Shown: positions 1-51,999 of the stretch, piece by piece
Numbering within the stretch: position 1 is the first letter of the stretch
Layout: every line of letters begins with the position of its first letter
NCBI RefSeq assembly: GCF_019649055.1
Contig: NW_026570222.1
Coordinates: 3,410,001 to 3,474,000 of the forward strand
DNA length: 64,000 nt
Source: Paramacrobiotus metropolitanus
Lineage: Eukaryota > Tardigrada > Eutardigrada > Parachela > Macrobiotidae
Reading direction: 5' to 3'
Notes under the pieces: generated by a model
Database searches by the model: none
What the model was told of the DNA's origin: nothing
The model's input: the letters and a program-made list of their open reading frames with translations, nothing else
Translations under genes and position numbers: made by a program

Positions 1-422
1 TTCTGAAAGCAGATTGCTGCTAATTGCAGTTAACTGGTTTAACTTTTAAGAATTTATTACTGTCCGATTTGATCACATACTTATTATTAACTTATATTTA
101 ATAATTTTGCGATTCTTGGTTCAGTCGTTCAATTCACGTTGAGACATAGTGGATTTTTGATTGGCAAAATTGACCGTTTATTTTGGAGCTAAAATTATAG
201 GGCTCATTTCGTTTGCTCACAAAACTAAAAGCATAGTATACCAGTGATACCACCGTGCAGTACTGGACGTTGTGTTTGTACTTGGTCTGATTTTGTAGCT
301 CCAGCAGCGAAGTTTCAGTCCGTCATGAGCGAGGCCGACAGTTGTTTGCTGCGCACGCCCGGGCGCGTCGTGATGCACAACAACAACAATCCGCTAGCTT
401 CTCAGCAGCTTCAGCCTGGGAC
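1..422. other. 5' flank of the repeat-protein gene
   Basis: No gene is supported here. The reading frame of the downstream gene is open back to about 291, but its first in-frame ATG is at 423. A separate ATG at 325 opens a short out-of-frame peptide that overlaps the start; it could be an upstream ORF or the sign of an unresolved 5' exon. No clear TATA box was seen. Confidence 0.4.
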
Positions 423-2985
423 ATGCGTTTACAGTCTCCGTCTCCTCGCGATCATTCTGGATCATGCAGTTTAATTCTGGAGTCGCCGGCCCGTGAGATG
501 TGCACTCCGATACCTGATGACGAAGAGCCGTTGCATGTGTCTTCCCCGTGCATTGGTGCTGAAATGGATGATGCATCTATCGCTACAGGGCGTGCCGATG
601 GGGATGATGTTGATCTCAACAAAGAATCTATCGCTGGTGTAATGGACAAGGGGCGGCTGTCTTCACGCAGTAGTTCTGCATCGTGGAATATGAATTTGTC
701 CTCTCCGATCAGTAACGTGCGCAGGTCGAAACCGCTGGAAAAACCGATACGCTTATCTACTCCGTACGTTGATGCTGGGATAAATAATATGGATAGTGGT
801 GCAAAACGTGTGAAAAAGAACAACTGCTCTACCGTGGATGAAGAATCTGTCATCATGGCACTGGACAGTGATCTGCCGTCCTTGTCCGATCGTTCCGCGT
901 CGTTGAGTATAGGTCTCGCGTCGCCGTCCAGTGAAAACCGCACGTCGATACTGAACGAAGCACCGTTGCCGATATCTTCCCCGTTCGGTGATGCTAGAAT
1001 AAATAATCCGCGTAGTAGTTCGAAATGTACCGAAGAGGATGAGGTTAGCGACGACGAAGAACCTGCCGCTGGCGAGAAAATATTGCCATCCGCGCCCGAT
1101 GATTCTGGGTCATCGAGTATTAATCTGTCATCCCCGACTGGCGGAGCGCAGACGTTGACGCCGGATGGACGAGCGGTACAGGTATCTTCCCCGTTGGTTA
1201 GTGCTAAAAAGAATAATGTGGACAGCGGTTCAAAATATGCCGAGGATGGAGAATCTGCCATTGATGTGTTGGAAAATGTGTCACCGTCCTCGTCTGATCA
1301 TTCTGCTTCGTCCAATATAAGTCTGGCGTCGCCGGCCAATGGAAAACCGTCGCCGGCCAGTGGGAAGGCGTCACCCGCCAGTAGAAAGCCATCACTTGCC
1401 AGTGGAAAGCCTTCACCATCCGGTGGAAAGCCATCACTTGCCAGTGGAAAGCCTTCACCAGCCAGTAGAAAGCCATCACTTGCCAGTGGAAAGCCTTCAC
1501 CATCCGGTGGAAAGCCGTCACTTGCCAGTGGAAAGCCTTCACCATCCGGTGGAAAGCCATCACTTGCCAGTGGAAAGCCTTCACCCGCCAGTAGAAAGCC
1601 ATCATTTGCCAGTGGAAAGCCATCACCCGCCTGCGCAAAGCCGGCGCCGGCCAGTGAGAAGTCTGCACCAGCCAGTAGAAAGTCGTCACTGGTCAGTGGA
1701 AGCTCTGGAAAGCAGTCACTGGCCAGAGGAAAGCCGTCGCCGGCCACGGGAAAGCTCGCGTTTATACCGAATGAAATACCGTGGCAGATATCGTCCCGGC
1801 TTATTGATGCTGAAATGGAAGATGTGGGTAGCGAATCCCATTGCACCGAGGAGGATAATGTTTCGAGCGAAGATGAAGAATCTGCCGGTGGTGCACTGGA
1901 CAATGTGACGCCGTCCGGAGGAAAGCACTCGTTGTTAGCGGCGCAGTTGTCTTCCCCATTCGTTGATGTTGAAATGGAACATGTGAATAGCGGTTCAAAA
2001 TACGCCGAGGAGGATGACGGCCTCAGTGAGGATGACGACTCTACCAATGGTATATTGGACAGTGTGCCACCGTCTTCGTCCGACGATTCTACGTCGTCCA
2101 GCATGAATGCGGTGCTGACAGCCAGTGGGAAGCGCACCTCATTATCGGAGGAAGTTCCGGCGCCATTGTCTTCCCCTTATATTGGTGCAATAGATGGAAC
2201 GGATATCGGTGTGAAATATGCCGCAGAGAATAGTGTTTTTAGCGAGGATCAAGAATCTGTCCTGGGTGCACTGGATAGGCTGCCACTACCACCGTTATGG
2301 TTCTGCAACGTTCCGTTGTTTGTCTGCTTGGTAAAACGTCGCCTGAATGATGAAAAGCTGGCACTGGAAGGGTTTACCAAGATCATCTACGAGTAAGAAT
2401 ACGTTTCGTTGTGTTGGTGTTTTTATTTTGTGGCTTCTCCATTTTCGACCTATTTATAGATGTGCATCACGAGTAATTTTCCCCAGTGCAATGGAGGTTG
2501 AGGAAAATGAACGATTTCTGCATAAATGTTCCGGTTATAAACCCGCAGACTTGTACAACATGTGCGCAAGGTCCGATTCCTGTTGTCAATGGTTTTGTTT
2601 TCTTTGTTGTTAACACAGGACTAGGTGTTAGCACAAGACTAGTCATTTAAATAGGGGTTGCACTATCAATAATAACTGCTAAGTCTGCTGCTGCCATTCG
2701 AGTTGCCGTAGTTTCGATTTTGGTTGTATTGTTTTTGAAATCTTAAATTAGGTATGTGTAAGTTGATCCGTCACTTTCTGTTGAAATACAGAGGCGGAAA
2801 ACTTCGGGCATAATGCATAAGCTTGTTTTTGTTGTTGCAGATTTCTTATCAACAAAAATAGCCCGTTGGAGTACTATAAACTTTTGAGCGATATGTGCCC
2901 CTATCCATTGCTTCTTGAGCGTCTGGTGAAAGTTTATCGTGGAGGCAGTAACCGACCAGCAAGCTTGCTCAGCTTTACAGAATAG
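423..2985 (+). CDS. Ser/Pro/Lys-rich tandem-repeat protein, two exons
   Basis: Exons 423-2392 and 2841-2985 encode about 704 residues. The intron runs from GTAAGA to TTGTTGCAG and the phase-2 junction is preserved, ending in TAG. Most of the protein is low-complexity and probably disordered. It shows about seven imperfect acidic, Ser-rich modules of roughly 80-90 residues, each with a SSP turn, a NVDSGSKYAEE-like stretch and a PSSSDxSxSS stretch. In the middle (about 1330-1740) a basic array repeats a 7-residue KPSxASG/KPSPSGG unit more than fifteen times. The last 80 residues differ: they are hydrophobic and predicted helical, spanning exon 1 into exon 2. No signal peptide or known domain is recognised. 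The start at 423 is simply the first in-frame ATG. Alternating acidic and basic arrays suggest a nucleic-acid-binding, scaffold or phosphoprotein role, but that is only a guess. Confidence 0.7.
1333..1740 (+). repeat. 21-bp coding minisatellite (KPSxASG array)
   Basis: A 21-nt unit and 42-nt double unit are repeated head to tail within the first exon of the repeat protein. The unit is a multiple of three without stops in most frames, which is why long reading frames also appear on the other strand and in other frames here. Units differ mostly by single substitutions (SGG/ASR alternation). This is consistent with expansion by unequal exchange or slippage. Confidence 0.85.
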
Positions 2986-18879: not shown

Positions 18880-19949
18880 AAACGTACAGATTACAGAGTG
18901 AAAGTAACAGCGCATCTGTCGGACTGGCTCCCTGTGCGGTCGGGAGTGCCACAAGGCACAAAGGGCCTGTGTTGTTCATTGTGTACATAAACGATATGCC
19001 AAATGGAAATGACGCAGAATTGTTCGCCGATGATACGGTACTGTATGGCATTGGCCGCACGAAAGAAGAAGCTGCAGCGAAGTTAAGCGTGCAGATTGGC
19101 AGTGTGACAACCTGGCTTGCAGATAACACCCTCTGCATAAACGAAAAGAAGTGCAAACTCATGTACATCTGTTCCGAACCGAAGAACAGCCAACCTTCTC
19201 CAGTGGTGATGATCAATGGCTACCAGATGGAGGAAGAAAAGTGCGTTAAGTATCTGGGGATCTTCATAGACCGCAACCTGAAGTGGGGAACGCATGTAGA
19301 TCACGTGCTGCGAAAAGTTAACTACGGTATCGCAATGATTAACTGCGCGAAAGACGGCCTGGATCTGCCCCAGCGTAGGAGCCTTTACCATGCTTGTGTG
19401 CAGCCACACTTGACTACGGGTCGGATACGTGGTCACCGGCATCTTTGGCTTTGCGCGGCAAACTGGCTAAAGCACAGCGGAAAGCACTGCGGGCGATTTC
19501 TGATTACAAGGAGCGGGTAACCCCCGAGCTGTACCAGAAACTGCGCATCCTGCCGGTGTACGACCGTTGGAAGCAGTCCGAGGCAGTATGGTTGTACAAG
19601 ATCTACAACCACGAAGCGTACCATCCTCCACAGTACCTGGTCGACATGATTGACTTTACGGATGTTACAGCGCGGTATAACCTCCGGAAGCCAAAAAGAA
19701 TCGAAGCCAAAGCGAAGAAGAAGATCGGGGAAGGCACGTTGACCATGCGTTTAAGGGACATTTTCGAGCGCATACAAAACGTTAATATGCAGATACTCCG
19801 CGTTGATGGTGTTGGTTTTTTCAAATTTGCTCTCCGAATGGTGGATCTGTCGTAATCTTAACGTTGTTTTTGTAGCGGCCAGACGTTAAACGTTAAACCC
19901 GTTAAACGCTAAACGTTAAACGGGTTGTCTGCTCTTGATGTAATAATAA
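18880..19949 (+). pseudogene. Truncated non-LTR retrotransposon (RT domain remnant)
   Basis: A 5'-truncated LINE encodes the C-terminal half of a reverse transcriptase. It shows a VPQGT block near 18945, LFIVYINDMP near 18975, the catalytic FADD box at about 19023-19034, a KYLGIF block near 19245, and a thumb/C-terminal region to the stop at 19855. The frame is broken at least twice: at about 18960, between VPQGT and the following GPVLF block, and at about 19400-19410. It is therefore dead. After the stop come GTTAAACG-type short repeats, then GTTGTCTGCTCTTGATG followed by a (TAA)n tail. Microsatellite tails of this sort are typical of Jockey/I/CR1-group elements. The exact clade and the 5' edge are uncertain. 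Confidence 0.85.
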
Positions 19950-24049: not shown

Positions 24050-26293
24050 ATGGATGGCAATGGAAGAATCTTCGTTGTTGACGATCTCCACAACGACAAC
24101 GGCTTTTGCGAGGATGATGTTGAAGATCCCACGGACCCACAGCCATATCTCAAGAGCGCAGATCACACTCAGACTAACCATCATGTAAAGATCGTTGAGT
24201 TGCTTCCCGAGGACAAATTTCACACTAACCGAAGCATCATTGATCTGGCAAGCTTGGATCCTGTCGCTTACACTGCAACGGAACAGGGACTGGTTCCGCT
24301 GGACGAAACTGTCCCGGTGGCCGAAGATCTTATACAGCAGCCCTTGGCCGCGATTGGGGATATTGTAGCGATCCCGCCGGCTGTTCTGCAGAAAGTCTTG
24401 GCGGTGGAAGACGGTGAAAGGGATCTGCATCAGCGTGATGACATTGTTGCTCCTATTATCCACGGCTGCGTTACTCCCAGGTAATTTTGCAGTTCATTGA
24501 CATTTGACTGTCCAGTTTAATCTTTCAGTATCTGTTACGTTATAAACTTGTGATGGTTAATTATGGGTTTATTTGGTTATGATCTCGTCAGGTGCCTGGG
24601 ATTGACTAGCAGCATACGCTCGCCGTACAGTGCTTCATCATAAAAGCGTAAACATCTAGCGCATCCAGCATCACTCTGAAAACTGTTTGAGTTCTCTTTC
24701 GAAATGGCGGTTTTATCCTGTGTAGGCTGTGTATCACCCTTGTTAGGTACCTGTCCTGTTGTAAATAATTTGGGTATTTTCCTGTCATGTTGTAGAGTCT
24801 GGAAAATGCACTTGAGCAAACTAGATCTTTATATTCTTTGTGTATTGATTTGGTACGAGTAGTTCGTGTTCCCTTTGTTGTTTTCCTTGCAGAGTGTACG
24901 CGCAGTACCTACATACAAAATTAATGTTACAATCATGATACTAAACGTACTTGTAGTAACTAATTGTTAATTTGACATGTTTCAGGCTTTCCGTAAGCGA
25001 TGATGGGTTTATAAAATTGAAAAATTATAAAGTCTCCTTTGATGTTATTGGAGGTGGCACATTATCGGAAGTGCGAGCTGCCATTAACGTTATCGATGGG
25101 AAAAAATATGCTGTGAAGATATTCTCTAAAACGAAGCTGAAGAAAGTCAGCATGTTGAGAAGGTGAGCTGGGTTACGTGATGGCGGCTTGCCGATCGACT
25201 GTGCGTTTCGTAATTTTTTTTCTCTGTAGGAACTCACGGAATCCGGTGGAAGATGCATACAGAGAAGCTGCACTACTTCGCCGTTTAGACCATGAAAATG
25301 TTATAAAGCAAGTGCACTGTACTAACGAATTGTGCAATATTTTAATGGTTAAAAGTTTTGTATGCTCTGGTACATTATTGTTTATGATGCCCGTTTATCA
25401 CAACCGTTGATGCATGTGTTTATGTGTTTGAATGATGCGAAATTATTTTCTAAACCTCCCAGATTACTTAAGCTTTACAATATGAATTCATAGTTTATTT
25501 TGCAGGCTGTATGATTTCATCGATGATCCGGAAGATCAGAACATTTATATAGTGCTGGAATTTATGGATCGTGTGTTGATGGATATTCCTTCAAGTACGT
25601 AATGAACGCTTTATTGCCAATTACATCTTCATGAGAACCATAAGAACGCGGGCGCGTAATGAAGGCGTTTAGGCAGCTTTCGTCACGAAATAATGGACTG
25701 CGAGATATAACTGCGATAACATAGTTGAGCTTAATTGTTTTTTTAAAGGCTCTCTTTATTGTGTTTCAGCTTTTTATTATCAAGAGGAGGAAGCACGAAG
25801 ATACTTTATGCACATTAAAGAAGGCATCAAACATCTACATAGCTGTGGAATCGTTCATCGCGATCTGAAGCCGCAGAATCTTCTTGTATCAAGTAGCGAC
25901 ATCGTGAAAATTGCAGACTTCAATTTTTGCGATGAACTCGTACTGCAGGATGATGGTACAGAAGCCGTTTTATTAACTGCGGCCCAGGGGACGCCGGCGT
26001 TTACTGCACCGGAATGCCTGCTGCCTGATGAGCGGTACTGTGCTGGTCGTCCGTTGGATCTGTGGGGACTGGGTGCGACGCTGTATGTTCTCGTGACGGG
26101 AGAACTACCATTCAGGGCACTTTTGCTGCCGGAATTATTTGAATCGATTCTCAATGATCCAGTCGAGTTCCCGGAGAAGATCGCTCTGTCGGGGGAAATA
26201 AAGTCAGTCATTTTGCATCTGATGGAAAAGGACCCGAAGAAACGGTTAATTATGAGTGACCTTGAGCTGCTTCCTTGGCTTCGATTTGTTTGA
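24050..26293 (+). CDS. CaMKK-like Ser/Thr protein kinase
   Basis: Exons 24050-24480, 24986-25162, 25230-25307, 25506-25594 and 25770-26293 give 432 residues. The first 160 are acidic, unconserved and probably regulatory. The kinase domain follows. It has a loosened glycine loop (IGGGTLSEV, ~165), the ATP lysine in YAVKIF (~188), a CaMKK-type stretch NPVEDAYREAALLRRLDHEN, the catalytic loop HRDLKPQN (~288) and the activation-segment end GTPAFTAPE (~340). The order and inserts match CaMKK, the kinases that activate CaMKI/IV and AMPK. Two oddities stand out. The magnesium-binding DFG is DFN (25916-25924). The intron after 25307 starts with GC, and only that GC-AG choice keeps phase and alignment. 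No clear calmodulin-binding tail follows the kinase domain, which ends almost at the stop. The start is the first in-frame ATG. Confidence 0.85.
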
Positions 26294-29958: not shown

Positions 29959-32900
29959 TCAAGGATTGTGACCACGAGTGACTGTAGTTCCATTTCCGGC
30001 TTGAGGATGAGGCAGTGGTTCCGATGCCGGTTCGCTGTACCATCGTTGCAAACGTGACGCATGGACGCTCGAATTAGGAATTTCTACCAACGAAGTTTTC
30101 GGCTTGGCTTTCTTTCGATGGTTTGCAGTTGCGACGAAAACTTCATCGGTTTCATTATTACTGGAGTTTTCTTCGTCGTCTTGCAGATGCTCCGATGAAG
30201 GATATGAAATCTACTCAATAAAAATCCCGTTATACAGGAACAGCAGCAACAACGCGCAAGTTCAGATAAGTCATAATTATGACAACAATTAGGTATGATT
30301 ATAATAGATCTCAATAGGTATTTACAGCGTGTTCCTGGACAGCTTGCATGATGGCGTCGTGAATGGAAACAAATATGTGATCAACGTTCAGCTGGGGTGT
30401 GAATCCAGATAATGCCAAAGATTCTCGCATGTTCGCTACAACGAAAATAAACAAAAAGTAACGTTTATTAATCAGTTTAAGTAGAGATTCTACCGATTTT
30501 GACCTCTTTTGACTGATCTCGCTGGCGCAGTGCGTGTCCTTGTGCTGCATGATAACTATGCGTTGCACCAAACACTACTCTATGATACTTTCACTACATA
30601 CATTAGAAGTTTGAACTCGGTTTGGCTATTTCAAAGTTACTGATTTAAAGTCGTTATTTTGCGGACGCAATAATATATAGTGGAATTCCCACTACATAAT
30701 GAGAAAGCGGTCAACGCGTGATAGTAAACGAATAAGAACACTAATACCTTTACAGGATGCGAGGAATAAAGATATCTTTGCATCGCTGCACTCCGCCGCC
30801 AACTGATTAATCGCCGCAATTCCGTTAACATCCACGAAACATACACTAGAACAGTCGACGATTAGGTGGGTTAACGGCTCAACTGGAGCCAGGTCCATTG
30901 TCAACGTGGCGGCATCGACCCGGCCGCCGCGTTCCGGTGCACTGAAGGGAGTGTACTGGATGTCCTGGGAGGGGTGATTGTCGTACAGGGTGGTGGCGTG
31001 GGAAACGGTATGCATTTCAATGTCATGATCATTCGTGGAGCCGGACTCCACGAAGCCCTTGTAGCTGGCAGTTGAGCCCTGTCGGCTGCGCGCTTCCCTT
31101 TTCGACGGACGAGCTCTGTACTTGCCTAATTTAGCGCTATGGTGAATCTTATCAAGGAAGTATTCGCAGTTCGCAAAATAGAGCGGCGCTTCAAAGCGAA
31201 TAATCTTGCAGCCAGGAACTTCCACTGCCTAAAATTTTTGTTGGAACGCACTTATAATTTAATTGAATGTTTTATAAGGCGCTTTCAATTCCGGAGCAGG
31301 AGAATGAAAGACCGCGGCGGTTAGCTTACGAACTATGCTCTAGAGAATATACGTATAAGTAATACCGATTTGTACACATCGATTCGTTTGTAGATCTCCG
31401 TGCCCAGTGCTCTTCCAAGAACAGAAACGTCCGGTCTCTTAAAAAGCATTAGTTGGTAAGTGACTCCCTTTTTGTGCCATCGTTCCGCATGGTACATACG
31501 CAAACTTAAGCAGGATTATCTCAAATCGTACATACCTGGGTGCGGAATACTACGGTCAACAGACTCCACCCCACAGCAATGCCCAGACCCAAATCTATGT
31601 CCGTCAACAGCACACCGCCAAGGGTCACAACAAACACCGACTGCAAAAACATCAGGGTTTATAATCATAAACCAGATGCGATATTATTGTTAATTATGAC
31701 TGAAGATGTACAGTATCGATGGCAGAAACTCGCGAAAGTTTCCTTAATTCCATGATCTGCTTGAGTAAACCAATTAAGGCCACGACGATCACACATCCTA
31801 AACAGGCTTTCGGCAGCGGTTCCAGTAGACGCCCAAGTGCTAAGAGGACAATCAGGACGAACACTGTGGATATGACACTGACAATCTGCAAACATTATTA
31901 ATTGAAGCCTATAAGAATTAATTTGCACATCTCGATGCTTATACGCAAAGTCATTCTAGCAATTCCCGCAAAAGAGAATTAATTACCTGTGTTTTCCCTC
32001 CGATGGATGTCTGCACCGCTGTTCGTCCCAGTGATCCCGTTGACGGGATACACTGGAAGAAGCCAGCAAAAATGTTGCTGAACCCCATTGCTCGCAACTC
32101 TTGATTGGCATCGATGCTATATTTGTATTTATTCGAGAACAGCTTAGTCAACGATAAGGTGATGGCGAAGCTGACAATCGCTATTGCAAAACCTATTTAA
32201 AAACAATGTTTCCGGTAATCACATGCATATATAAAACCTGTATGTAAGTGGATCACTCACTATCAAGCGCAAAAGCTGGAAGAATCGAAAGGTCAGGAAG
32301 CCTTGGTGCCGGAAGCCCAAGAGGAATGTGACCCAAAATATCCACTCCATAAGCAGTACCCAGGCTCATAAGGTATGATGCAAGAGCTCCGAAAACAACC
32401 TGGATGACGTACCACACGACAGTTGTGCGCGTTCAGTTTTATGTAAATATTAGTATCATATGCGCGCACAATACATTTATGCATTTTAAATGCATGCACA
32501 GCGAAGTTGTTGACCTGCTACTGACCACAACCAGTTCCGATGGAAATGGTATTTTTACGGGCAGCCGTGACTGTATCCAGTTGTTTTCGTTAATTAAAAA
32601 TTTCGCCGATAAAAGGATGACCAGACAAATGATGGATATGACGAGAGTTGGGATGTGGGTTTCTTTGATAAGTTTAAAGAAATCGATGTATGCCTGCAGG
32701 GAGATTCAGAAGCTGTATTTAATTTAATTTTGGCATTTCGCATTGATATTAGTTGATAAGTTCTTACATAAACGAGCTTTAATGCTCCAGAATATTCCTT
32801 CAGCTTTCGTAATCCAAAAATTGAACTACAAACATTCACCACTTTAATTAATTATGTCAAGAGCCTTATGGCTAATACTGTATATGCAGAGTACTTGCCT

Positions 32901-39048: not shown

Positions 39049-42000
39049 ATGAAAAAATTTCCCTGTCGAATGCACCGCCCGGTCGACTTTTTGATACGTT
39101 GTTCTGTGATTGTTTTCGTGTCCCTGTTGTTGTTGCAGTTGTTGAACTTGGAATTAGTCCACGCGCACTCTACTAGAGGTAAAATAATCCTTCTCATAAC
39201 CGGTTTTGAAATAAAAAACTTTTGTAAGTCGGTGATATCAAAGTACCACAGTCGCTTGCGCATCGAAAATGATGTTACAGTATCGTTTAAAACATTTTTT
39301 TCTAACGTAAATGCGGCGAAATTTGTAATTATATAGATATGATTTGAACGATAAGCTTAAGAATTTTATACTTACATTATATGAATTTTGATGTTGTTTA
39401 TATTCCAAACAATGAATTAAGTTTTTATTTTTGTACTGCTAGAAAAGCAAAGGTACAGTTGTATATCTATATCTTATCAAGTTGCGCAGAAAGCTATAAC
39501 CTAGAGTACGAAATACAATGTGCGTAAAAATACTAGTATTGACGAATAAAATTAACGCATAAAAACCAAAATTTAATTTGCCCAAATGGTTCAACTAGCA
39601 ATAGTCGAAGACTCGAATTCAAAGTTCAGTGGTGCAACAATAATATCCGCTCATTTACGAGAAGTACTCAAACCACGTTACCGCGTCCAAATCTCTTGAA
39701 TTTCGGCGGGAACATATTTGCCATAGCGCAATAAGGTCTTCCCGAGCTACCACATGAAGTGGATTACAAATTTAAACGCACCACATCTTGTAATATTAGG
39801 GAGTATTAATTTAAAACTTTAACAGAAAAGCGCGAAGCTCCCTGCCGAGCGTCAGAAGAAAATGGGGCAGGGTTTTGTTTGGATGCAGATAAACTGCAGT
39901 CGCAGTGCGTCGGTCGAATGGCCATTGCCCAACAGTCCCGGGAGTGTAAGGCGGATCAGTGGTGCTGTTTACGCAGCGGAAGACGGTTCCACGGTAAAGT
40001 TGCCATGAACAGACTACTGAAAAGTACTTCGGTCGATGATGCACCATGCGGGCATGGTAGCAACTTCAACCGCAATCTCTTCACATCCGGTGGCGAATCG
40101 AACATACGGCGTTTCGCCAGAATTTTCGACGGAAACCCAGTTGATCCGGGTGATGTTTGTTGGATTGTAAGTATCTCTGTACAGGTTCACTGATACTTTA
40201 CTTACTACTATTAATTATTCATTTTTGCTGTCACGTTAAATTTTAGTATTGGTGCCGACGAGCATTGCTCTGAGAGAAGCAAATTTAGATATGCTTAATC
40301 ATTAATTTTATGGCACGCGCAATTGAAAGATGTACGTATTGACGGATTAGCTTATTATGTTTACAAATTGTCTTGGTGCGAGCGTTTGCGACCAAACGAT
40401 CCTTAGCTGGAATGAACTAATTAAGCATTTTTGTAATAATTAACAATTAACGTTACTGAAATTTGCAACTATCAAAAATATTAGGAAGCACAGCATGGTT
40501 GGTGCAGAAATCGAACTATAAAAATATACGCCCGCGTGCAAAGCAAGCGAAGCTGTGAACTTTGAAATTCCTTAAAATTGTTTTTACCGTTTTATGCTAG
40601 TTGACACATAACAGGGTCTGTTTGCTTAGGCTGCCATATTCGACAAAGGCAACGCCACGTTAGGAATTCCATTTACTTATTTGTGTGCCGGCGCTGTTTT
40701 AAATTCCACTCATGTTATCACTGTCGCCCACTGTGTCGACCGTCTGTTGTCCGATACCGGCCAAATACTCATCCAGACAGGAATCACCGACGCATCGCCT
40801 GGCATGCGGAATGTCAATGACGGTTGTAGTCAGAATTTCGCTGTGGCAGACCTGATCATCCCAGATTCCTACGATCCCGATACGCTGGATAAGGATTTCG
40901 CCATACTGAAGGTTAAAGGGAAGATCCGCAGCAATGACTGCACTTGTCGTGCATGTACATTGGACCGGACAGTGTCCAGTTCCTCTATGGTAACATGCTG
41001 GGTGGCCGGTTTTGGCGCAACACGAGGTAATTATTAGCTTGTTAGCTCTTAAGTGTTATGTACTCACAAAAACTAAAAAGGCTTTTGAATGATAAACTGA
41101 AAATACATTGCTTCCGATCCGATGCCAGAGCTCCTGTGCTGACACCTGCTTCGTTTACTTATCTGGTTTCGGCACAGTTTTAAATTGTTGTATTTTCAAT
41201 TTCAGAAGGAGGACAAGGTTCCTTGCAACTTACAAAATCGACTATCGATGTAGGTGGTTTTCTGCAACAATGTCATCGACAGCAATATAAAACTGCAACC
41301 TTCTTATGTAATAAAAGGTTTTTAATGTGTACAATATGTCTAAATGTACGTTTGCTGCACAATGTGCAATACAAGTACATTATATATTATTTGAAGGTAT
41401 GCATATCTGTACGAATAGATTGCTTAAGCGCGGCGATGGGTATTAAGTAGATGACATTGTAATGGATGCAACAGTACTCGTATGCTTAGCATTTGGTGCT
41501 TATTACTAACTATTATTATAGTGTTACCTGATTTTGGTACTGAATGCATTCTTATAAAACCTGAAAAAAACTGGCAGTGACTATCGTGACCTTTAGTTTG
41601 TGAGACGAGACCGATGTGAAGTGTTGCTCGGAAGTCAACTGTCAGGATCCAAAAGATTTAAATTAGCCGACTCATCCGTGTGTGCTGGCGATATCCAACG
41701 GGGAGGAATTTGCACGAACGACGGTGGTGCTCCTTTGACCTGCATCGTCGGTACAGTAACTTTTACTTGAGAGACTAAGAACAATTTTCGACGGATTTTC
41801 GCAAGGATCATGTAAAGAAAACTCTGTGACAATTACGAGTATTTTTGATGTTCAATTGTTTTGCTCTCAGACGGCCGGCACACACTGGTAGCGCTGGGAA
41901 GTTGGTCTACCGACTGTTCCCGAATGCCCAGCATTTTCGCCAGTCTGATGTCCTGCCCGCAACTTCTCCAGGATCCTAACGTCCCCTGCAACCTTAACGA

Positions 42001-44227
42001 AGCTGTCTTAACCGCGGCAGTCGCCCTGACGGATACGGTAATGGACGGAAGTGGACCGAAATGCGGCATACCCGGCACCAACGAAGTCGATCCGTTTGCT
42101 CTGGCCAATCAGAGCCCGGATAAACAGGCACAAGATGCGCTGCGCGTCAAGAAAGAAGCCAAATCCCTGAAGACGAAGATTCTGACGACCGGTTTTCCCA
42201 TGATGAGCGATCATACCATACCGGAAATCATTACCGACGACGATGAGATCAGATCGAAACAGGGCACCATCATGCTGCCCGGCGGTAATCTCTCCTCCAT
42301 ATCCAAACTGTTTCCGGCGGAAACCATCGTCGGTGGTGCAACCGTGCCACTTAATCAGATCTGCTGGCAGGTCCTGGTTTCCACAGGCTGTGGAGGGAGC
42401 ATCATTTCGGATCAGCATATTTTGACAGCGGCACACTGCGTGACAATGTACGTACACGGGGCAACGCACACAATCAGTAGAGTAGAGGTTAGGTATATTG
42501 TTTATCACCACTTTTCACGCCAATCTGCATCAGTTTTACATACAACAGATAAAATACACGAAATATTTACTTATGTTAGATATATGATACTAATAAACAT
42601 TTAGATTAAAGTGCAATATAGCAATCAACTGCAACAATCATACATCAAAATTTCTCACTAGTTATTTTCGCTTAATTTGCGAATAACGAAGAAATTGCAA
42701 AAGGCTAACAAATTATAAGAATTACCTAGGTCTCGGTAAGTACAAATATCTGAGTAATTATACTGTGAATGTTATCGAATAAAAATTGCTGGAGGGAGAC
42801 TACGCTATTGTCAGACTGCTAATATGGTGCGATTTTATCGGAGATCAAACTAATAGAATCTATTATGCTTAGAAAACATCTGCACATTTTAGAGCGGGAA
42901 CGACGAAAGCTAAAGATCCTCGTAGTGTGCGTGTTGTCCTTGGGGTAAGCATCATGATTACTGACAATGTTGCAAACTAAAAATTCATGGAACTGTACAG
43001 ATATATGTGTGAGACACTGCCGACCATTTAGTTAGTAGTATTATTTTTGTTTGCTTCCGTGAACTATTTGCTCCGCAAAAAATATTGCATAATTACGTGC
43101 CGATTTTTCAACAGGCTACTCAGTCTCCTGTGCAGTTCCCACTGAAAGACTGTCAAGAACTGCGCTCTGTTCGGCGGGTTATCGTTCATCCGGACTACTT
43201 CCTGGGCAACGACACTAGCGAATGGGTGTCCAGCGATATCGCCATTCTCGAACTGGATCGCAGCATCGATTTCCGCAACCCATGCGTGTGCCGGATCTGT
43301 CTGCAGAATTCCGAACCGGCACCCGGTGAGAAGTGCACCGTTAGCGGTTTCGGCTGCCAGGTGCCGACTAAGCCGTCGTCACCGTGTCAGGATCAGAAAG
43401 TGCGTGACCTTATGAAGCTGAATGTCATCATGCCGGGGATGACGTCTGTTCGTCCTTCTTCAATACTGACTTCCCAGCGAAAATGCTGACCTGCTCCGCA
43501 TCCAATCTCAGCCATGCGCCCTGTTTCGGGGACAGCGGTGGCCCGGTGGTGTGTTACAACAGCGAGCAGAGCACGTATTATCAGGGGGGTGTGACAAGTT
43601 TCGCCATCTTCCCCGACGGAATGGAGGAATGCGGATTGGCGAAATGGAATTTTCAGTATTATACCAAAGTCAAAGCGTTCGTTAGCTGGATACAGGAGGA
43701 AGTGCCGGATGTCATGGTGCGTGCTTTATTCGCATTAGCTTGCCTTTGTTTACTGTTCATTCGTACTTGGTACTCGTATACAGTTTGCAATACAGACACC
43801 AGAAACGGTAGGGTAGTGCTAGTGATGTGGTAATTTGAATCAACCTAGTATCCATTAAATAATTACAGGGCGCAGTCAGTCATTTAATTAGTACGTATAC
43901 CGTGAATGCCCTGCGCTTGTTTTGATAAACAATTTTTAGCAACGCAGTAGCTCTACAGCAATATACTGCTTATTGTAACAAACTGACTTGCCACGTGTAC
44001 ACTTTACAGTTGCCGCATTCACAGTATTAGTATTACTGTATTACCAAAGCACAGCAGCTTTAAATGTACAGGTGTAATGAGTACTTTATTGATTTATAAA
44101 AATTGTTCTTTGCATTTTATAGGTCACTGATCCTGGATCTTTTTCTTTTCACGCTTCCTTCAAGGTCGACCTGGGCAAAGGTGTTTCCTCCTTAATATCA
44201 TCGAATAACCTTCTTCCAAACGTGTAA
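39049..44227 (+). CDS. Clip-domain tandem serine protease; first domain inactive, second frameshifted
   Basis: Nine exons (39049-39178, 39826-40166, 40630-41026, 41206-41249, 41597-41750, 41871-42447, 42893-42944, 43115-43716, 44123-44227) encode about 800 residues. Exon 1 is a signal peptide/anchor. A six-Cys clip-like domain (ending ECKADQWCC) follows. Trypsin-like domain 1 has RIFDG activation, His in TVAHC and Asp in DKDFAIL, but the serine block is NDGGAP, with Gly (41723-41725) in place of the nucleophile. It should therefore be a non-catalytic homologue. A linker of about 110 residues leads to domain 2: IVGG, LTAAHC, SSDIAIL and FGDSGGP, all triad residues present. Domain 2 is preceded by Thr rather than Arg/Lys, so activation would be unusual. 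Exon 43115-43716 is one base short of a continuous frame. The frame changes at about 43400-43415, and without correction it stops at 43489. Clip proteases act extracellularly in melanisation, Toll or clotting-like cascades. Confidence 0.85.
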
Positions 44228-45219: not shown

Positions 45220-46999
45220 TCATATCGTCTGTGCTCGAACTTGTGAGCGTGGAACCGCCAGTTCCTGGAAACAATTTCCGGACATTCTGGAACTGGCCTG
45301 AGAAAGGTCATAACTGTAAGATTGTATCGGTAGATTGACATTCAGGTGCTTATCCGCTTCGCTGACAGTGGCGACGCTTGAAACATGACGACCGTAAAAA
45401 ATTTTGCCAACGAGTCGAGCAACATCTCTTCTAGTATCGGGATTTGCGCTTACATACACCAAAGGGCACAGCCCACAACCTATTCAAGGAAAATAAACTC
45501 AAAACGGTTCCGTTTAAGAGTGAAATAATACGTAATTTCAAATTATTTCTCTAATAAGGTAATAGTAATATAATAATAATAAGGTAATAATTATAAGGTA
45601 CTATCTATTGCCAATTTATCTAGTACTGCAGCACTAGTGCTATGCACCACATTTCTACTGAAGCGAGTACCTCGTAATACATTATAAATTTTTAGACAGA
45701 CCTGAATAAGTATTTAGCCATGTAATGTGCATAAGTCGATATCGGCAAACGCCGCGTTTATGCTGGAAACTTGAATTTAAAATACGTACGTAAAACAATA
45801 AAATGCGAACAGCAGTTCGAATTTAAATGACAAGTATTCGCTGTAATCGTTATGTTTAAATAAAAAACAAATGCCTCGTTTGTTGCTACTAAATTATTTG
45901 AGCTAACGTAAAAAGTACCTGCAAAAGCCATGGCAAGCAAGGCTCCTGGAAAAATACCGCGAGGGAGGCTCTGAAGAAGCGGTGCTCCAAAACCAAAGGA
46001 CGATCCAGGAAGAAAACAGACAAAGAAGACAGCGGATGTGGTAGCCGTAGCCCTGAATTAAGGGAGCCAAGAATTAGTTATCAGTCCAGAAATGCTATGT
46101 CACGAATTAAATTCTATAAAACCACAATTTATGACATGTATGTAACAAGATATGTATTCTAAAAATTATAGTGTAGGCGGCTGTAGGTAGGCAATCTTGC
46201 GAATACAGTACTTCGTTATGCGTAACTCCGATCGCATTTTCTGTGCCTTCTGTCGCGCGTACCGCACCATGTCCTTTCCAAACGGCTCCGTCGAGGTGGT
46301 GGTGCTCAGCCGCACCATTCTCTGCCCGCTAATTTTCTGCTGTGACCTTTTAATGCGCCACACCACGTAGCCATAACATCCGCACACCACCGCGAACGGG
46401 ACAATAACGGCAAACACCAGGAAGCTCATCTGGTACGCTAGCGAGGTCACCTGAACGAGACTGCAGCGGCGCATGAGAAACGAATAGCCATACTGCCCAC
46501 CGATGCGGAATAACGGGAAGACGAACAAAGAAAACGATATCCACCATGTGAGCCAGATGAGGGTGATGTTCAGCCAGATATTCTGCTGATAGGTCTTGCT
46601 CCGGCCCAGATGACCCACGGAGAAGGCCCGATCCACCGACAACACGGCGTGTGCGTAGGCCGACACGCACCATGACGCGTACGAGAGGAACGCCACGCTT
46701 TGACACAATATACAATCGGGATTGCTAACCCTGTCCAGAAAACTCATGTAGATCAGCAGCGGCAAGACAATGCCGCAGACAAACAATGTCACCACGGCTA
46801 GGTTAATCAGCATCGCGTTGCTGGGACGATGCTGCGTAGAGACATGGGAGGAAATCAGGATGATCGTGATACTACTAGCCACGCCGATACAGCAAATAGG
46901 CACAAAGACAATGGTAAGAGCGTATCCGTACAGTGAGTAAGAGCTGGTGGAACTGTTCTGTGCAAAGGGGGACAGCGGCTTCGCGGTTAAATTGTCCAT
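45220..46999 (-). CDS. Rhodopsin-type (class A) GPCR with degenerate motifs
   Basis: Minus-strand exons 46212-46999, 45919-46052 and 45220-45479 give 393 residues. An N-terminal tail with NLT and NSS glycosylation sites leads into seven hydrophobic segments. TM1 to TM5 are in exon 1, TM6 (FFVCFLPGS) in exon 2, and TM7 spans exons 2-3 (LAMAFAGCGLCPLVYV). Conserved class-A features are NLAV in TM2, the extracellular Cys before TM3, a W in TM4 and FxxCxxP-like TM6. The TM3 DRY motif is DRA, however, and the TM7 NPxxY motif is CPLVY. The Ser-rich tail after TM7 could be phosphorylated. The moody/Tre1-like or melatonin/opsin-related orphan groups are possible, but I cannot assign a ligand. The start is the ATG at 46999. 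Confidence 0.85.
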
Positions 47000-48094
47000 T
47001 TTGTGTGGACATTCAAAAAAGGATCGAAATGGAAAGATATGCACTATGTTCGCGACAGTAAGATCGTGGAGTTGCGGAAGGTAGAATGATATAAACCGGC
47101 ATCAAACGACTACACGGGAGCGCTGTGCGTGCCATGGAAATGCGTGCAGAGCGTGTCAATAACGATTTTGGTTAATTGTCCGGTCACGTTGTTCGGATTA
47201 AGCGATAATATGACACAATTCACTTGAACGCATATAGGCAATTTCTGATGAAGAAAATCACATAATATGTTCTTCGTATTAGTTAAAACACAGTAATAAA
47301 CTATAATTTTATTGATCTTTAAGCTAACTGACATCGCATACGCAGGCCTCGGCTTCGCGGTTCAGGGCGTGGGAATTATCTCACAATCAGTCAGGGGATA
47401 CCGGAATACGTATTTTAGTGTTTCGAAGTCTGTTTGCAGTAATGCTAACAGTATTTGCAGTAATATTACAGTATTTTTGAAAAGCGAATATCTATTAACA
47501 GGTTGCTGAAAATCATGGAATCACGTTCAAATGCATAGTTATATTCGTAGAATTACCGAATTTCTTCTATTATCGTAATTTACGAGCTACAACAGAAACG
47601 CTTATTGTACATCCGCACAATGAATGCTACAAGTTTCCTATTGTTTACTTATTTATTTAGCTTACTGGTTGACTGCAAAATGCAGAGTAGATCTGGACCA
47701 TTGTCAGCGTATATTGTATTTACACAGTTACTGGGTGGCTAAGCTAACTGGTAAGCATCTGTTAAATAAACTGCAGAGACGTATGATCAAACCGAATAAA
47801 CTAAAAACTGCCCGAAAAATTGAAAAGTTCAGAGTCTGCAAAATTATCCGTTAACGTTTATTTATCATATCCGGTGAATTATGAAACTTATCTTAAGGTT
47901 TCAAATGAATTAAACGGCTGAGACGAGAAATTTCGTATATAAGCTATGATGAATTTCGCAGTGCGCTGCTGGAAGAAGTATGTTGAAATTAATAAATACT
48001 AGCTGCCAGTAGCGATATTGCCGTAGTATTATATGACACGATAGTCAGTGTCGTCGATAACATTTTGTGGTCATTTTAACTGTTACACAAAATA
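47000..48094. other. Spacer between divergent GPCR and cadherin-like genes
   Basis: This should contain both promoters. No gene or RNA was recognised; a TTGCAGTAATATTACAGTA-type repeat occurs near 47440-47475. Confidence 0.3.
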
Positions 48095-51000
48095 ATGGAT
48101 CTTACAACCAGATTGACATTTGGATTATACAGATTTATTTGGGCATTAATTGCTTTTTGTATCTCATCCACTGGCGCACATGAGGTACACTGTACATGTA
48201 TATGTGAAATACTGATCTATATGTGTAATACTGATCGCTGATTGCAGCAATCTTTACAGTTTTTGTTACAATTAGATGATCCTGACGTTTACGGAATTTA
48301 TTTATATGTAACGCACTGAATAGTGTATAATTTTTAAAAGGCTCATATGCTTGTACATGTTGCTTGCTATGATAAAATATTACATGTACTGTATTAAAAG
48401 CGATTTCATTAAAATTTTAGATTCGAAAGCGGCAATCGCAGCCGGTTGTTTGTGGGCAACCCCTTTACACTGGTGCCGTTGTGGAAACCGCGCAACCTGG
48501 AACATTCATACTAAGGGCATCGGCCACAGACACAGCTGGAATACCTTTAACATGGTCGATACCGGATACCTCATTAAGATCGTTTCAGATCAATCCTACC
48601 ACTGGTGACATCACTACAGCGTTGCAGCTGTCCCGGAGATTTACCCGATCAGCACTAGAGTTCCGAATTCGGGCTTCAGAAACGGGCACACCGGCAAATG
48701 TAAGCGATGCTACGAGTGTTAAATTCTTTCTGAAAAATATCATTAATTTTGTCATTACTACAAAATGTGAAATCATCAGGTGAGTGTTTTCAAAATTGTA
48801 TACTAATGTATAGTACTGCGAGGCTGCCGTGCGCTTAAACATCCTCCCGGTGACCGGGCCCGGAACGTCCGCATCCGGCATATTTTCCCAAACTTCGTAT
48901 ACCTTTACGGCATCAACGTGTGCCGTGGGCGCCACTGTGGGAACAATAACGCCGGCCACGACAACGACCGGTGTGACGTACACGTACACCATACCAAGTG
49001 GAAACAGTTATTTTTCGGTCAATCCAACTAGCGGATTAATCACGCTTATTGCCATTCCTCCCACGGGGACGCAGACCTTCTCCGTCACAGCAACCGGCTC
49101 CACTGGTACCACCGGTACAGTCCCCGTAACGGTGTCCACCACCTGCTCCGGGACGGGAACCACCGGGCTGACCTTCTCCCAACCGTCGTACACCTTTACG
49201 CAGACAACATGCATACCGGGTTCCATAATCGGAGCCGTCAGCGCCTTTTCGACAACGGGCGGCACGGTGACCTATACGCTACCAACCGGTAACGGTCTGT
49301 TTACTATCAATCCAACCACAGGACAGATCACATCGCTGTCCACGACCAGTCTAGGAACACAAACGCTGACCGTACAAGCCATCTCCAGCACCGGTCAGAC
49401 CGCCACGGCTATGGTGCTGATCTCGTCAGTCTGCAGTGGAACCGGCATCGGAACGGGAGCACCAGTTTTTACGCAACCGTTCTATTCGTTTACAGCGGCT
49501 ACTTGTACTGTCGGTGGTACAGTGGGGCAAATTCAAGCCATATCTTCGTTTCCGGTAACATATCTAGTATTTCCCACAAACCCCTATTATTCCGTCAATC
49601 CCACTACCGGAGTGATTACAATCATCGCGGTGCCACCTGCGGGAATCGCCCAAACACTCACGGTGTGGATCCTTGTGACATGCTGCATGCTGTCATTTTT
49701 TATCGAAATTAAAACTTTCTTTCCAGGTGCAAGCAATTTCAACCAGCGGCATCCCAGCTACCGCAACAATATCTATCACCGGTTGCACTAGTACGGGCAT
49801 CATCAGTGGAACTGCTCCGGTCTTCCAGCAGGCTGTATATTCTTTCACCGCCACAGTATGCACAGCGGGGTAAATTTAATTTCTTATTTCCAAAAAAATC
49901 GTTTCTTAATCTTTAAGTTGACAAAATAATACTAGGTACCCAATCGGTCAAGTCGTCGCCACTTCCGCCACCGGACTGGTTACGTACACCGGAACAAGCC
50001 CATACTTCAGCGTGAATCCCACAACTGGGCAAATTACGGCCATAACCACTCCCCCTTCCGGTGTGCAGACTATACAGGTAACTGCCGTGTCCAGCAGCGG
50101 TCAGAGTGCCAGCACACTGGTTACCATCAACACGCTGTGCACCGGAACCGGCATCGGCACCGGTATATTCCCGGGCATCGGTCTGGGGATCGGTGGCACC
50201 GTGCCGACTTTCGTCCAGCCCTTTTATTCATTTACCGTCACCTCGTGTACATCGGGCACGGCGGTTGGATCAGTTACGGCCCAGTCGCCATACGGTATCC
50301 CGGTGTACTCCATTGATGCTGCCAATGGCGGGACCAATCCATACTTCGCCATAAGTCCACAGAGCGGAAGCATTTCGCTTATCGGCACACCGCCTTCGGG
50401 ATATTCCCAACAACTGACGGTCCGCGCGCAGGCCAGTGGCTATACAGCATCTGTCCCGGTCAACATTGCCATCACTTGTTCAGGCACCAGTACCGGAACT
50501 ATCGGCATTACCGGAAGCACGAGCGGGTTGTTTTCGCAGTCGTCCTACAGCTTCAGCGCCGGCGCATGCACACCCGGTGCACAAGTTGGTCAGGTGACAG
50601 CCAATGTTCCGGCTGGCACAACTGTAACGTATACAATCAACAGCGGCAATAACGGACAATACATCATCAATCCTTCTTCCGGTATTATAAATGCTGCGAC
50701 TCAATTGTCGCCTGGTGTGCCATCGACATTGACTGTATCCGCTATATCAACATCCGGTCAGTCCGGAACTGCTAATGTTATTATCAGTCCGACGTGCAAT
50801 GGTCAGCAATTGGTGATTACTGGCTCAGGTAATAGCTACGTGATGAGCGTACGTATTGGAAAAATAAGTCACGTCATTGTAGTATCGTTAGATTCAAATC
50901 ATCAATTACCTTACCTGCCTAGAGTAGCTGTTTGCCGTATACGGCCGTATACCATCGCGGATTGAATTAAGGGCAGATGTACTCGTACAAAAAATTTACA

Positions 51001-51999
51001 AAAAATTTACAAATTTACAAAATTTTTTGCTTGTGCAGATATATTTTGCTTTTGCATTTTCTGTTGATTATTACGACCCCAGAAATTACAAGGTAATAAC
51101 TAATAACTATAGCGAACAATGCTGATAAACTGATAAAACATTACGTAGTTAAACTACAAAACTAAATGCCTTAAAGGAGACAATTTTAATTTTGAATGAG
51201 ATAAATCATAAATGACAATTGTTAACAGGTGGTGCACCAACATTTTCTCAATCATCGTACAGTTTCCCACTTTCCACGTGCACTGCTGGGTCTGTTATCG
51301 GTTCAGTCGCAGCAAATGTGCCGGGCGGTGGCCAAGTTTCCTATACTCTGACCGGCTCGCAGTACTTTGGCATCAATCCTGGGACCGGCCAAGTTGGCCT
51401 AATTTCCGTACCGCCCACGGGAACGTATCCCTTGACAATTAACGCACTGAGCACCAGTGGCCAGACCGCGACGACCACCGCCACGGTCACCGCCAGTTGT
51501 TCGGGTGCGCCCATATTGACGTCGAATACCGGCGTCAATACAATTTCCAGCCCCGGTGTTAATACAATTTCGAACACGGGAGTGATCGGAACAAATACCG
51601 TCAACGCTAATCCCCTCAATAACGCGGTGGCCATTGGTGGAGGACCAGTGTTCAATCAGTCTAGTTATCAGTGTTCCGCCTCCTGTTCGACGGATTCGGC
51701 CCGCGTTTGCGTTGTCCGGGTACGTCAACTTGGAGCGCTAGAAAGAGTTAATTGCATCACTGCTGCAGACCGTGCACAAATATAATTTTACTCACTTTTA
51801 GGCGACAAATTCACGACAGGATTCGATGGACTACGGATTAAGTACGAGCAACCAGTTTTATATTGATTCCAGTTCGGGAGAAATCCGTACCATTACTGCA
51901 GTTCGAGGCGGTGGAACGTTTTCTCTTGCGGCCACCGCTACCGATCCTTTCGGTAACCGAGGAACCGCGCCGGTCACTATCACTATTGTCGGCTGTTAA
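48095..51999 (+). CDS. Secreted protein of tandem cadherin-like repeats
   Basis: Exons 48095-48184, 48421-48699, 48823-49662, 49727-49869, 49936-50828, 51229-51719 and 51802-51999 join in phase to give 977 residues. Exon 1 is a signal peptide (ALIAFCISSTGAH). A first cadherin-like domain includes SATDTAGIPLTWSIPD, FQINPTTGDIT and IRASETGTPA. Then come seven full repeats of about 90-100 residues and a broken eighth. Each runs FxQxxYxFTxxxCxxGxxVG, then a YTI/YSV strand, FxINPTTGxITxIxxPPxG, an LTVxAxSxxGQTAT strand and a CSGTG linker. The last exon ends ATATDPFGNRGTAPV. The spacing follows cadherin beta strands, but the calcium motifs (DRE, DxNDN) are absent and two Cys per repeat are added. 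There is no transmembrane segment, so it is probably extracellular matrix or cuticle. It is Thr/Ser/Gly-rich and likely O-glycosylated. Confidence 0.85.

Follow-up and report, generated by a model that had tools for sequence, protein, structure and literature searches.

Cadherin (EC) repeats are the textbook example of extracellular chains stiffened by calcium, and most calcium-dependent cadherins carry a transmembrane anchor. The ion is held in ordinary EC repeats with the help of a Glu that closes strand A and of the DxNDN linker that follows strand G. More precisely, PMC5120219 describes calcium as being bound in EC chains by the XEX and DYE motifs of one repeat, the DXNDN linker and the DXD motif of the next repeat. 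The same source also deals with EC repeats that are joined without calcium, namely PCDH15 EC9-10 and Drosophila N-cadherin EC2-3, where single bent linkers go together with an inter-repeat interface. Moreover, disulphides have been described within EC repeats: PMC8691648 places them in EC1 of PCDH15 and CDHR5 (strands A-F) and in EC2 of PCDH24 (F-G hairpin), and its authors compare the bond in CDHR5 EC1, in its effect, with calcium at site 0.

The locus described here, which lies in a window of 64,000 nucleotides (the whole stretch of DNA that was analysed) from the tardigrade Paramacrobiotus metropolitanus, encodes a tandem array of repeats with the same fold as, and a sequence homologous to, the EC repeats (PF00028) of CDH23, PCDH15, CELSR1 and FAT4, the signature INP.TG being common to CDH23 and the window repeats. 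In contrast to canonical EC repeats, the array lacks the four calcium motifs in all seven repeats and bears a Cys pair near two of the motif positions; it also has Gly/Thr-rich linkers, almost no charged residues and no clear membrane anchor. Its repeats are likewise joined without calcium motifs, as in PCDH15 EC9-10 and N-cadherin EC2-3, but those cases involve single bent linkers and an interface between repeats, whereas the present array has lost the motifs throughout, and a disulphide would take part. Such a bond would stabilise the repeat as in PCDH15/CDHR5 EC1 and PCDH24 EC2; however, the bonds described in PMC8691648 join other strand pairs, in single repeats and with canonical calcium linkers at EC1-2, while each repeat of the present array has one Cys where strand A ends and the other where strand G ends. 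The best reading is that a known domain occurs here in a new form, a calcium-independent EC array, putatively disulphide-locked and presumably part of an extracellular matrix.

A seven-exon gene coding for 980 aa is predicted at 48095-51999 (+), the exon joins having been inferred from GT-AG sites, consistent phase and comparison with paralogues. Exon 1 (48095..48184), placed by translation and splice phase, provides the start codon and a likely signal peptide (MDLTTRLTFGLYRFIWALIAFCISSTGAHE; hydrophobic residues 7-25), and exon 2 (48421..48699) a dibasic KR|Q site (KR being residues 33-34) and most of a first repeat, R0, with 24.7 bits for PF00028 (cut-off 28.8). Exon 3 (48814..49662) completes R0 (YCEAAVRLNILP) and includes R1, R2 and most of R3; it is followed by exon 4 (49727..49869), exon 5 (49936..50828; end of R4, R5 and R6), exon 6 (51229..51719; R7 and the first part of R8, with a 50-residue linker between them) and exon 7 (51802..51999), which carries the stop codon, all of them on the plus strand. 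A sequence-only reading of the same DNA had started the gene at 48823, but the predicted gene starts at 48095, upstream of the range 48823-51999 to which that reading was confined. As the beginning of exon 3, 48823 is less likely than 48814, which follows a TAG acceptor and adds the residues that complete R0; the latter is preferred because YCEsTVR is also found in three paralogues. An arrangement of one repeat per exon is ruled out by the introns inside R3 and R4.

The signal peptide claimed by the sequence-only reading, here judged by eye and hydropathy, is likely present, although it sits in exon 1 (48095-48184) and therefore outside that range. No clear transmembrane segment was found in the 980-residue model by hydropathy, although the gene may have a further exon: of all 19-residue stretches in the chain, the one with the greatest mean (1.589, residues 389-407, GVITIIAVPPAGIAQTLTV) falls inside R3 and is broken by PPAG, with the signal peptide marginally below it (1.579). 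The protein is likely to be secreted, as the sequence-only reading proposed. The chain is rich in Thr (180), Ser (121) and Gly (117) but poor in Asp (10), Glu (6) and Lys (1).

As regards other features of the window, a piece of a rhodopsin-family GPCR (7tm_1, 7.6e-16) lies at 46169-47044 (-), upstream of the cadherin-repeat gene and on the opposite strand. Pfam also identifies pieces of a trypsin-like protease (41861-42601, +), a STAS-domain protein (30695-31225, -) and a protein kinase (25808-26290, +), and a reverse transcriptase fragment (RVT_1, 4.9e-7) at 18969-19517 (+) is perhaps the remnant of a retroelement. A 684-residue open frame at 342-2396 (+), with an internal 42-base tandem repeat (1356-1701), has no Pfam match at E<=0.01, and the Rfam scan of the window gave 0 matches at the gathering score.

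From its N-terminus, the predicted precursor consists of the signal peptide, the KR|Q site, R0, the Cys repeats R1-R7 and R8, which makes nine cadherin-type modules. R0, encoded by exon 2 and the start of exon 3, is a cadherin repeat that keeps 7 acidic residues. The Cys repeats follow on the plus strand as R1 (48877..49152; Cys 159 and 234), R2 (49165..49440; Cys 256 and 330), R3 (49459..49792; Cys 354 and 426; split by the intron 49663-49726), R4 (49817..50146; Cys 451 and 522; split by the intron 49870-49935), R5 (50204..50485; Cys 558 and 635), R6 (50525..50803; Cys 665 and 741) and R7 (51237..51506; Cys 769 and 842). R8 (51627..51999, +; split by the intron 51720-51801) is divergent, reaching 18.4 bits with PF00028, under the cut-off; it contains Cys 900, 904, 912 and 980, the last being the C-terminal residue of the chain, and related exons exist on contigs C29 (3.0e-10), C32 (3.3e-7) and C14 (8.8e-4). 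Thus, the seven Cys-bearing repeats counted by the sequence-only reading are indeed present, at about 90 residues each, but R0 before them and R8 after them went uncounted.

R2-R7 are 41-51% identical to R1, and the alignment of the seven repeats has 15 invariant columns, both Cys among them. In leave-one-out profile searches all seven repeats were recovered with 76-99 bits, the best of 1000 self-shuffles reaching <=13.2 bits. The two conserved Cys residues reported earlier occur in 7/7 repeats, as does the signature F.Q..Y.F..(2-4)C..G..[VI]G; the literal INPTTGxIT is found in one repeat out of seven, though its relaxed form [IV][NS]P.[TS]G.[IV] is found in all of them. R1-R7 together with their linkers amount to 701 residues, with one basic residue and one acidic residue, which belongs to R5, and 46.5% of Thr+Ser+Gly. 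The six linkers, counted from Cys2 up to the array repeat that follows, are Gly/Thr/Ser-rich and 9-23 residues long.

The seven repeats are cadherin (EC) homologues. When a profile of the seven was compared with the sequences of the PDB, the whole-chain E values, which are sums over several repeats, were 5e-13 for CELSR1, 3e-11 for PCDH15 and 8.4e-8 for CDH23, and the best single-repeat values among the PDB alignments listed were 0.04 (CELSR1) and 0.0075 (PCDH15). At E<=1 the profile matched 102 sequences of the PDB, and the best 60 of these 102 are all cadherin-family by name. PF00028 passes its cut-off (28.8) in exon 5 alone, with 33.0 bits, the other four pieces of the gene giving 15.5-24.7 bits; in exon 3 the Pfam model of the FAT4 N-terminal cadherin, likewise sub-threshold, outscores PF00028. 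Among single repeats, PF00028 matches four of the seven at E<=1, and of the bacterial Ig-like models Big_3 matches one (E 0.01) and Big_9 one (E 0.63). Furthermore, 6 of the 10 open frames scanned from the relatives pass the PF00028 cut-off, and a scan of prokaryote genomes with exon 5 gave 74 pattern matches and no relative.

The computed fold agrees with this homology. The AlphaFold model of R2 alone (pLDDT 88.4, pTM 0.78) is a cadherin Greek-key beta sandwich. With this one-repeat model the top 50 Foldseek rows are all cadherin-family chains (best 7.4e-7), and so are the top 50 VIA rows, where the maximum Z is 14.7, obtained with CDH23 EC22-24 and FAT4 (rmsd 1.6 over 92 aligned residues), CELSR1 giving Z 14.5 (rmsd 1.4, 92 aligned). 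Hence the cadherin strand order and beta sandwich put forward by the sequence-only reading are borne out by the R2 model and its superposition on cadherin repeats, and the absence of a beta sandwich, which that reading had named as the outcome that would speak against it, is not what structure prediction gives. The proposal of novelty fared differently: the idea that the repeats belong to no known family is ruled out by PF00028, by the PDB profile matches and by the superposition onto cadherins, so that the domain itself is known, and what is new is a Cys-paired variant free of calcium motifs. The other outcome that would have counted against that reading, a profile search placing the repeats firmly within an established family, was thus obtained as far as homology and fold go.

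The loss of the calcium motifs, which had also been noticed from the sequence, was confirmed by counting: XEN, DxD, DRE/DYE and DxND are each found in 0/7 repeats, and R0 is also devoid of all four. Four canonical repeats of the same genome served as controls and showed XEN in 3/4 and DxD, DRE/DYE and DxND in 4/4 each; they come from one contig (C34) and, as the DxND linker was the criterion for choosing them, DxND is present in them by construction. Acidic residues make up 0.2% of the array repeats vs 14.6% of these controls.

The search of the P. metropolitanus genome (169,799,020 bases in 533 contigs, the window's contig being C1) indicates that the gene is a member of an expanded multi-gene family, as judged by sequence. 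At E<=1e-3, exon 5 as query gave 27 matches, among them the window's own, and a relative on C29 gave 31; at E<=1e-6 the two queries together reach at least 11 contigs (C2, C3, C4, C7, C12, C14, C29, C32, C61, C62 and C157). Homologues of the exon that encodes most of R0 occur at 10 other places in the genome, 8 of them at E<=1.1e-17, and of these eight, C14 has three inside 9 kb and C3 two inside 8 kb. In a FastTree of 48 repeats, printed with no support values, the repeats of the window are mixed with those of the relative L032 and of others. A KR|Q site shortly before the first repeat is shared by seven open frames, the window's included. In addition, some relatives have Tyr/Pro/Gly-rich stretches (YSAPPSY, GGYG, TGTTGLTYPY); on C14, the frames of L030:3838-8453 (-) contain Tyr/Pro- and Gly/Tyr-rich low complexity (YSAPPSYAAPPTY, SGGGYGTPQP) beside the Cys repeats. 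In the tardigrade literature, no title or abstract among the matches listed describes such a family, the words "cadherin" and "cuticle" were absent on a word search of two tardigrade papers, and nothing was found that combined cadherin repeats, cuticle, secreted and disulfide, these searches covering mainly literature other than subscription journals.

The position of the two Cys residues is of particular interest in relation to the missing calcium. In a joint MAFFT alignment with the controls, Cys1 occupies the column that follows the calcium Glu in every row, and Cys2 precedes the D of DxND by three columns. Hydrophobic residues occur at -4 and -6 before Cys2 in 5/7 repeats, and 4/4 controls show the same spacing ahead of the D of DxND. 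In most of the E-cadherin rows of VIA, the model residue 91 (Cys2) is the last one aligned, to residue 213, which corresponds to the first D of the EC2-3 linker. The spacing and the superposition favour the D itself; taken together with the alignment, they put Cys2 where strand G ends, no more than three residues ahead of the first D of DxNDN. In the R2 model, Cys17 lies three residues past the strand 9-14, which in cadherins presumably runs parallel to strand G, and Cys91 two residues past the strand 80-89 (strand G), in a last block with a mean pLDDT of 68. Given these strand positions in the model, both Cys should be at the same pole, where calcium would act.

The joint occurrence of both residues was computed over 48 full-length repeats out of 110 matches (model position <=13 to >=88, E<=1e-3), of which 43 come from relatives and five from the window, the intron-cut R3 and R4 being excluded and none of the 12 L029 matches qualifying; the profile behind the count was derived from Cys-bearing repeats, which it may pick up preferentially. 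The first count gave 42 repeats with both Cys, 2 with neither and 4 with one; after three were re-read by eye (two with the residue past the match end, one round an insertion) the figures became 45, 2 and 1. Fisher's p for co-occurrence was 0.025 before and 0.0027 after re-reading, values that are not probabilities of independent events since the repeats are related. The two Cys-free repeats are the first array repeats of L015:4569-5282 (-) and L016:1825-2256 (-), with the rest of the repeat kept; they are the same repeat in two tandem duplicates on C3, and so perhaps one event. L032:48-132 keeps Cys1 alone.

One disulphide within each repeat is favoured by sequence and model. Besides the topology, this reading draws on the joint occurrence of the Cys, the Cys1-Cys2 spacing of 71-77 residues in 7/7 repeats against linkers that vary from 9 to 23, and the even number of Cys in 9/9 modules. 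The alternative is that the disulphides run between repeats or between chains, forming a covalent network instead of self-stapled beads. The additional Cys of R8 and the one at the chain end would fit such a network, as would the three Cys found in 4/5 repeats of the frame L030:6009-8453 and the repeat of L032:3168-4190 (+) that keeps only Cys1 and adjoins a three-Cys repeat, a pattern in which neighbouring repeats may be linked by a disulphide. Nevertheless, the near-constant spacing beside variable linkers, the two repeats from which both Cys are missing together and the predicted location of both at one pole of the same domain all argue against it, and we regard the network as improbable.

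With the intra-repeat bond as the favoured arrangement, the protein is moderately likely to be a secreted one of nine cadherin-fold modules, the middle seven Cys-stapled and calcium-free, that builds apical extracellular matrix. The precursor would be secreted and then probably cut at KR|Q; each repeat would adopt the EC fold, with a disulphide staple taking over the holding role of calcium. The seven middle modules would have traded calcium for disulphides, leaving an array independent of calcium and almost uncharged, and the linkers of 9-23 residues, rich in Gly, Thr and Ser, would let the stapled beads swing. The likely use would be as building material of the cuticle, the egg shell or the lining of the feeding apparatus, and a nearly uncharged chain insensitive to calcium would suit an extracellular material that dries and swells. 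The "matrix or cuticle fibre" of the sequence-only reading is suggested by the composition and, by analogy, by the relatives. As to the fibre itself, a two-repeat model (pTM 0.53; five models with mean pLDDT 45.8-79.3) falls below 50 at the linker residues 92-96, and this value, together with the Gly/Thr-rich linkers of 9-23 residues, suggests a flexible chain of beads and not a single stiff fibre. A version in which the calcium bridges of an EC array were swapped for intradomain disulphides and the array then expanded in the tardigrade into matrix proteins, whose calcium-independent stiffness would survive drying and osmotic swings, seems possible but doubtful.

The same domains could also belong to a soluble or mucus-like secretion (saliva, gut lumen, seminal or adhesive), the Thr/Ser-rich faces of which may carry O-glycans. 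The composition of the 701-residue array, with nearly half of its residues Thr, Ser or Gly and a single residue of each charge, the long flexible linkers and the clustering of related stretches on C29, C14 and C3 would all be compatible with it; the Tyr/Pro/Gly-rich stretches of several relatives are not what it would predict, since they presumably resemble structural proteins that are cross-linked in cuticle and egg shell, and this kind of secretion is rated rather unlikely. The structural matrix proteins of arthropods and nematodes (cuticular, resilin-like), Gly/Ser/Thr/Pro/Tyr-rich and likely secreted, are similar in these respects to the relatives of the window gene, but no such family appeared in the Pfam scan of its pieces, nor did any chitin-binding domain, of the Rebers-Riddiford or another kind, among the matches at E<=10 (the gene being scanned as 5 pieces). 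Finally, a ligand in cell adhesion or signalling, i.e. a soluble partner binding membrane cadherins, would agree with the cadherin homology and fold and with the seven acidic residues retained by R0. Such a role is very improbable: the four calcium motifs are absent from R0 and from R1-R7, no clear transmembrane segment was found, and the expansion of the family and its low-complexity partners look structural.

If the reading of a Cys-stapled matrix protein is true, the family would represent a second way to hold cadherin domains, in which the fold is kept, the calcium motifs are dropped and a Cys pair is set near that pole. It would then be a natural template for protein engineers, and its members would be candidate protein constituents of the extracellular matrices of tardigrades.
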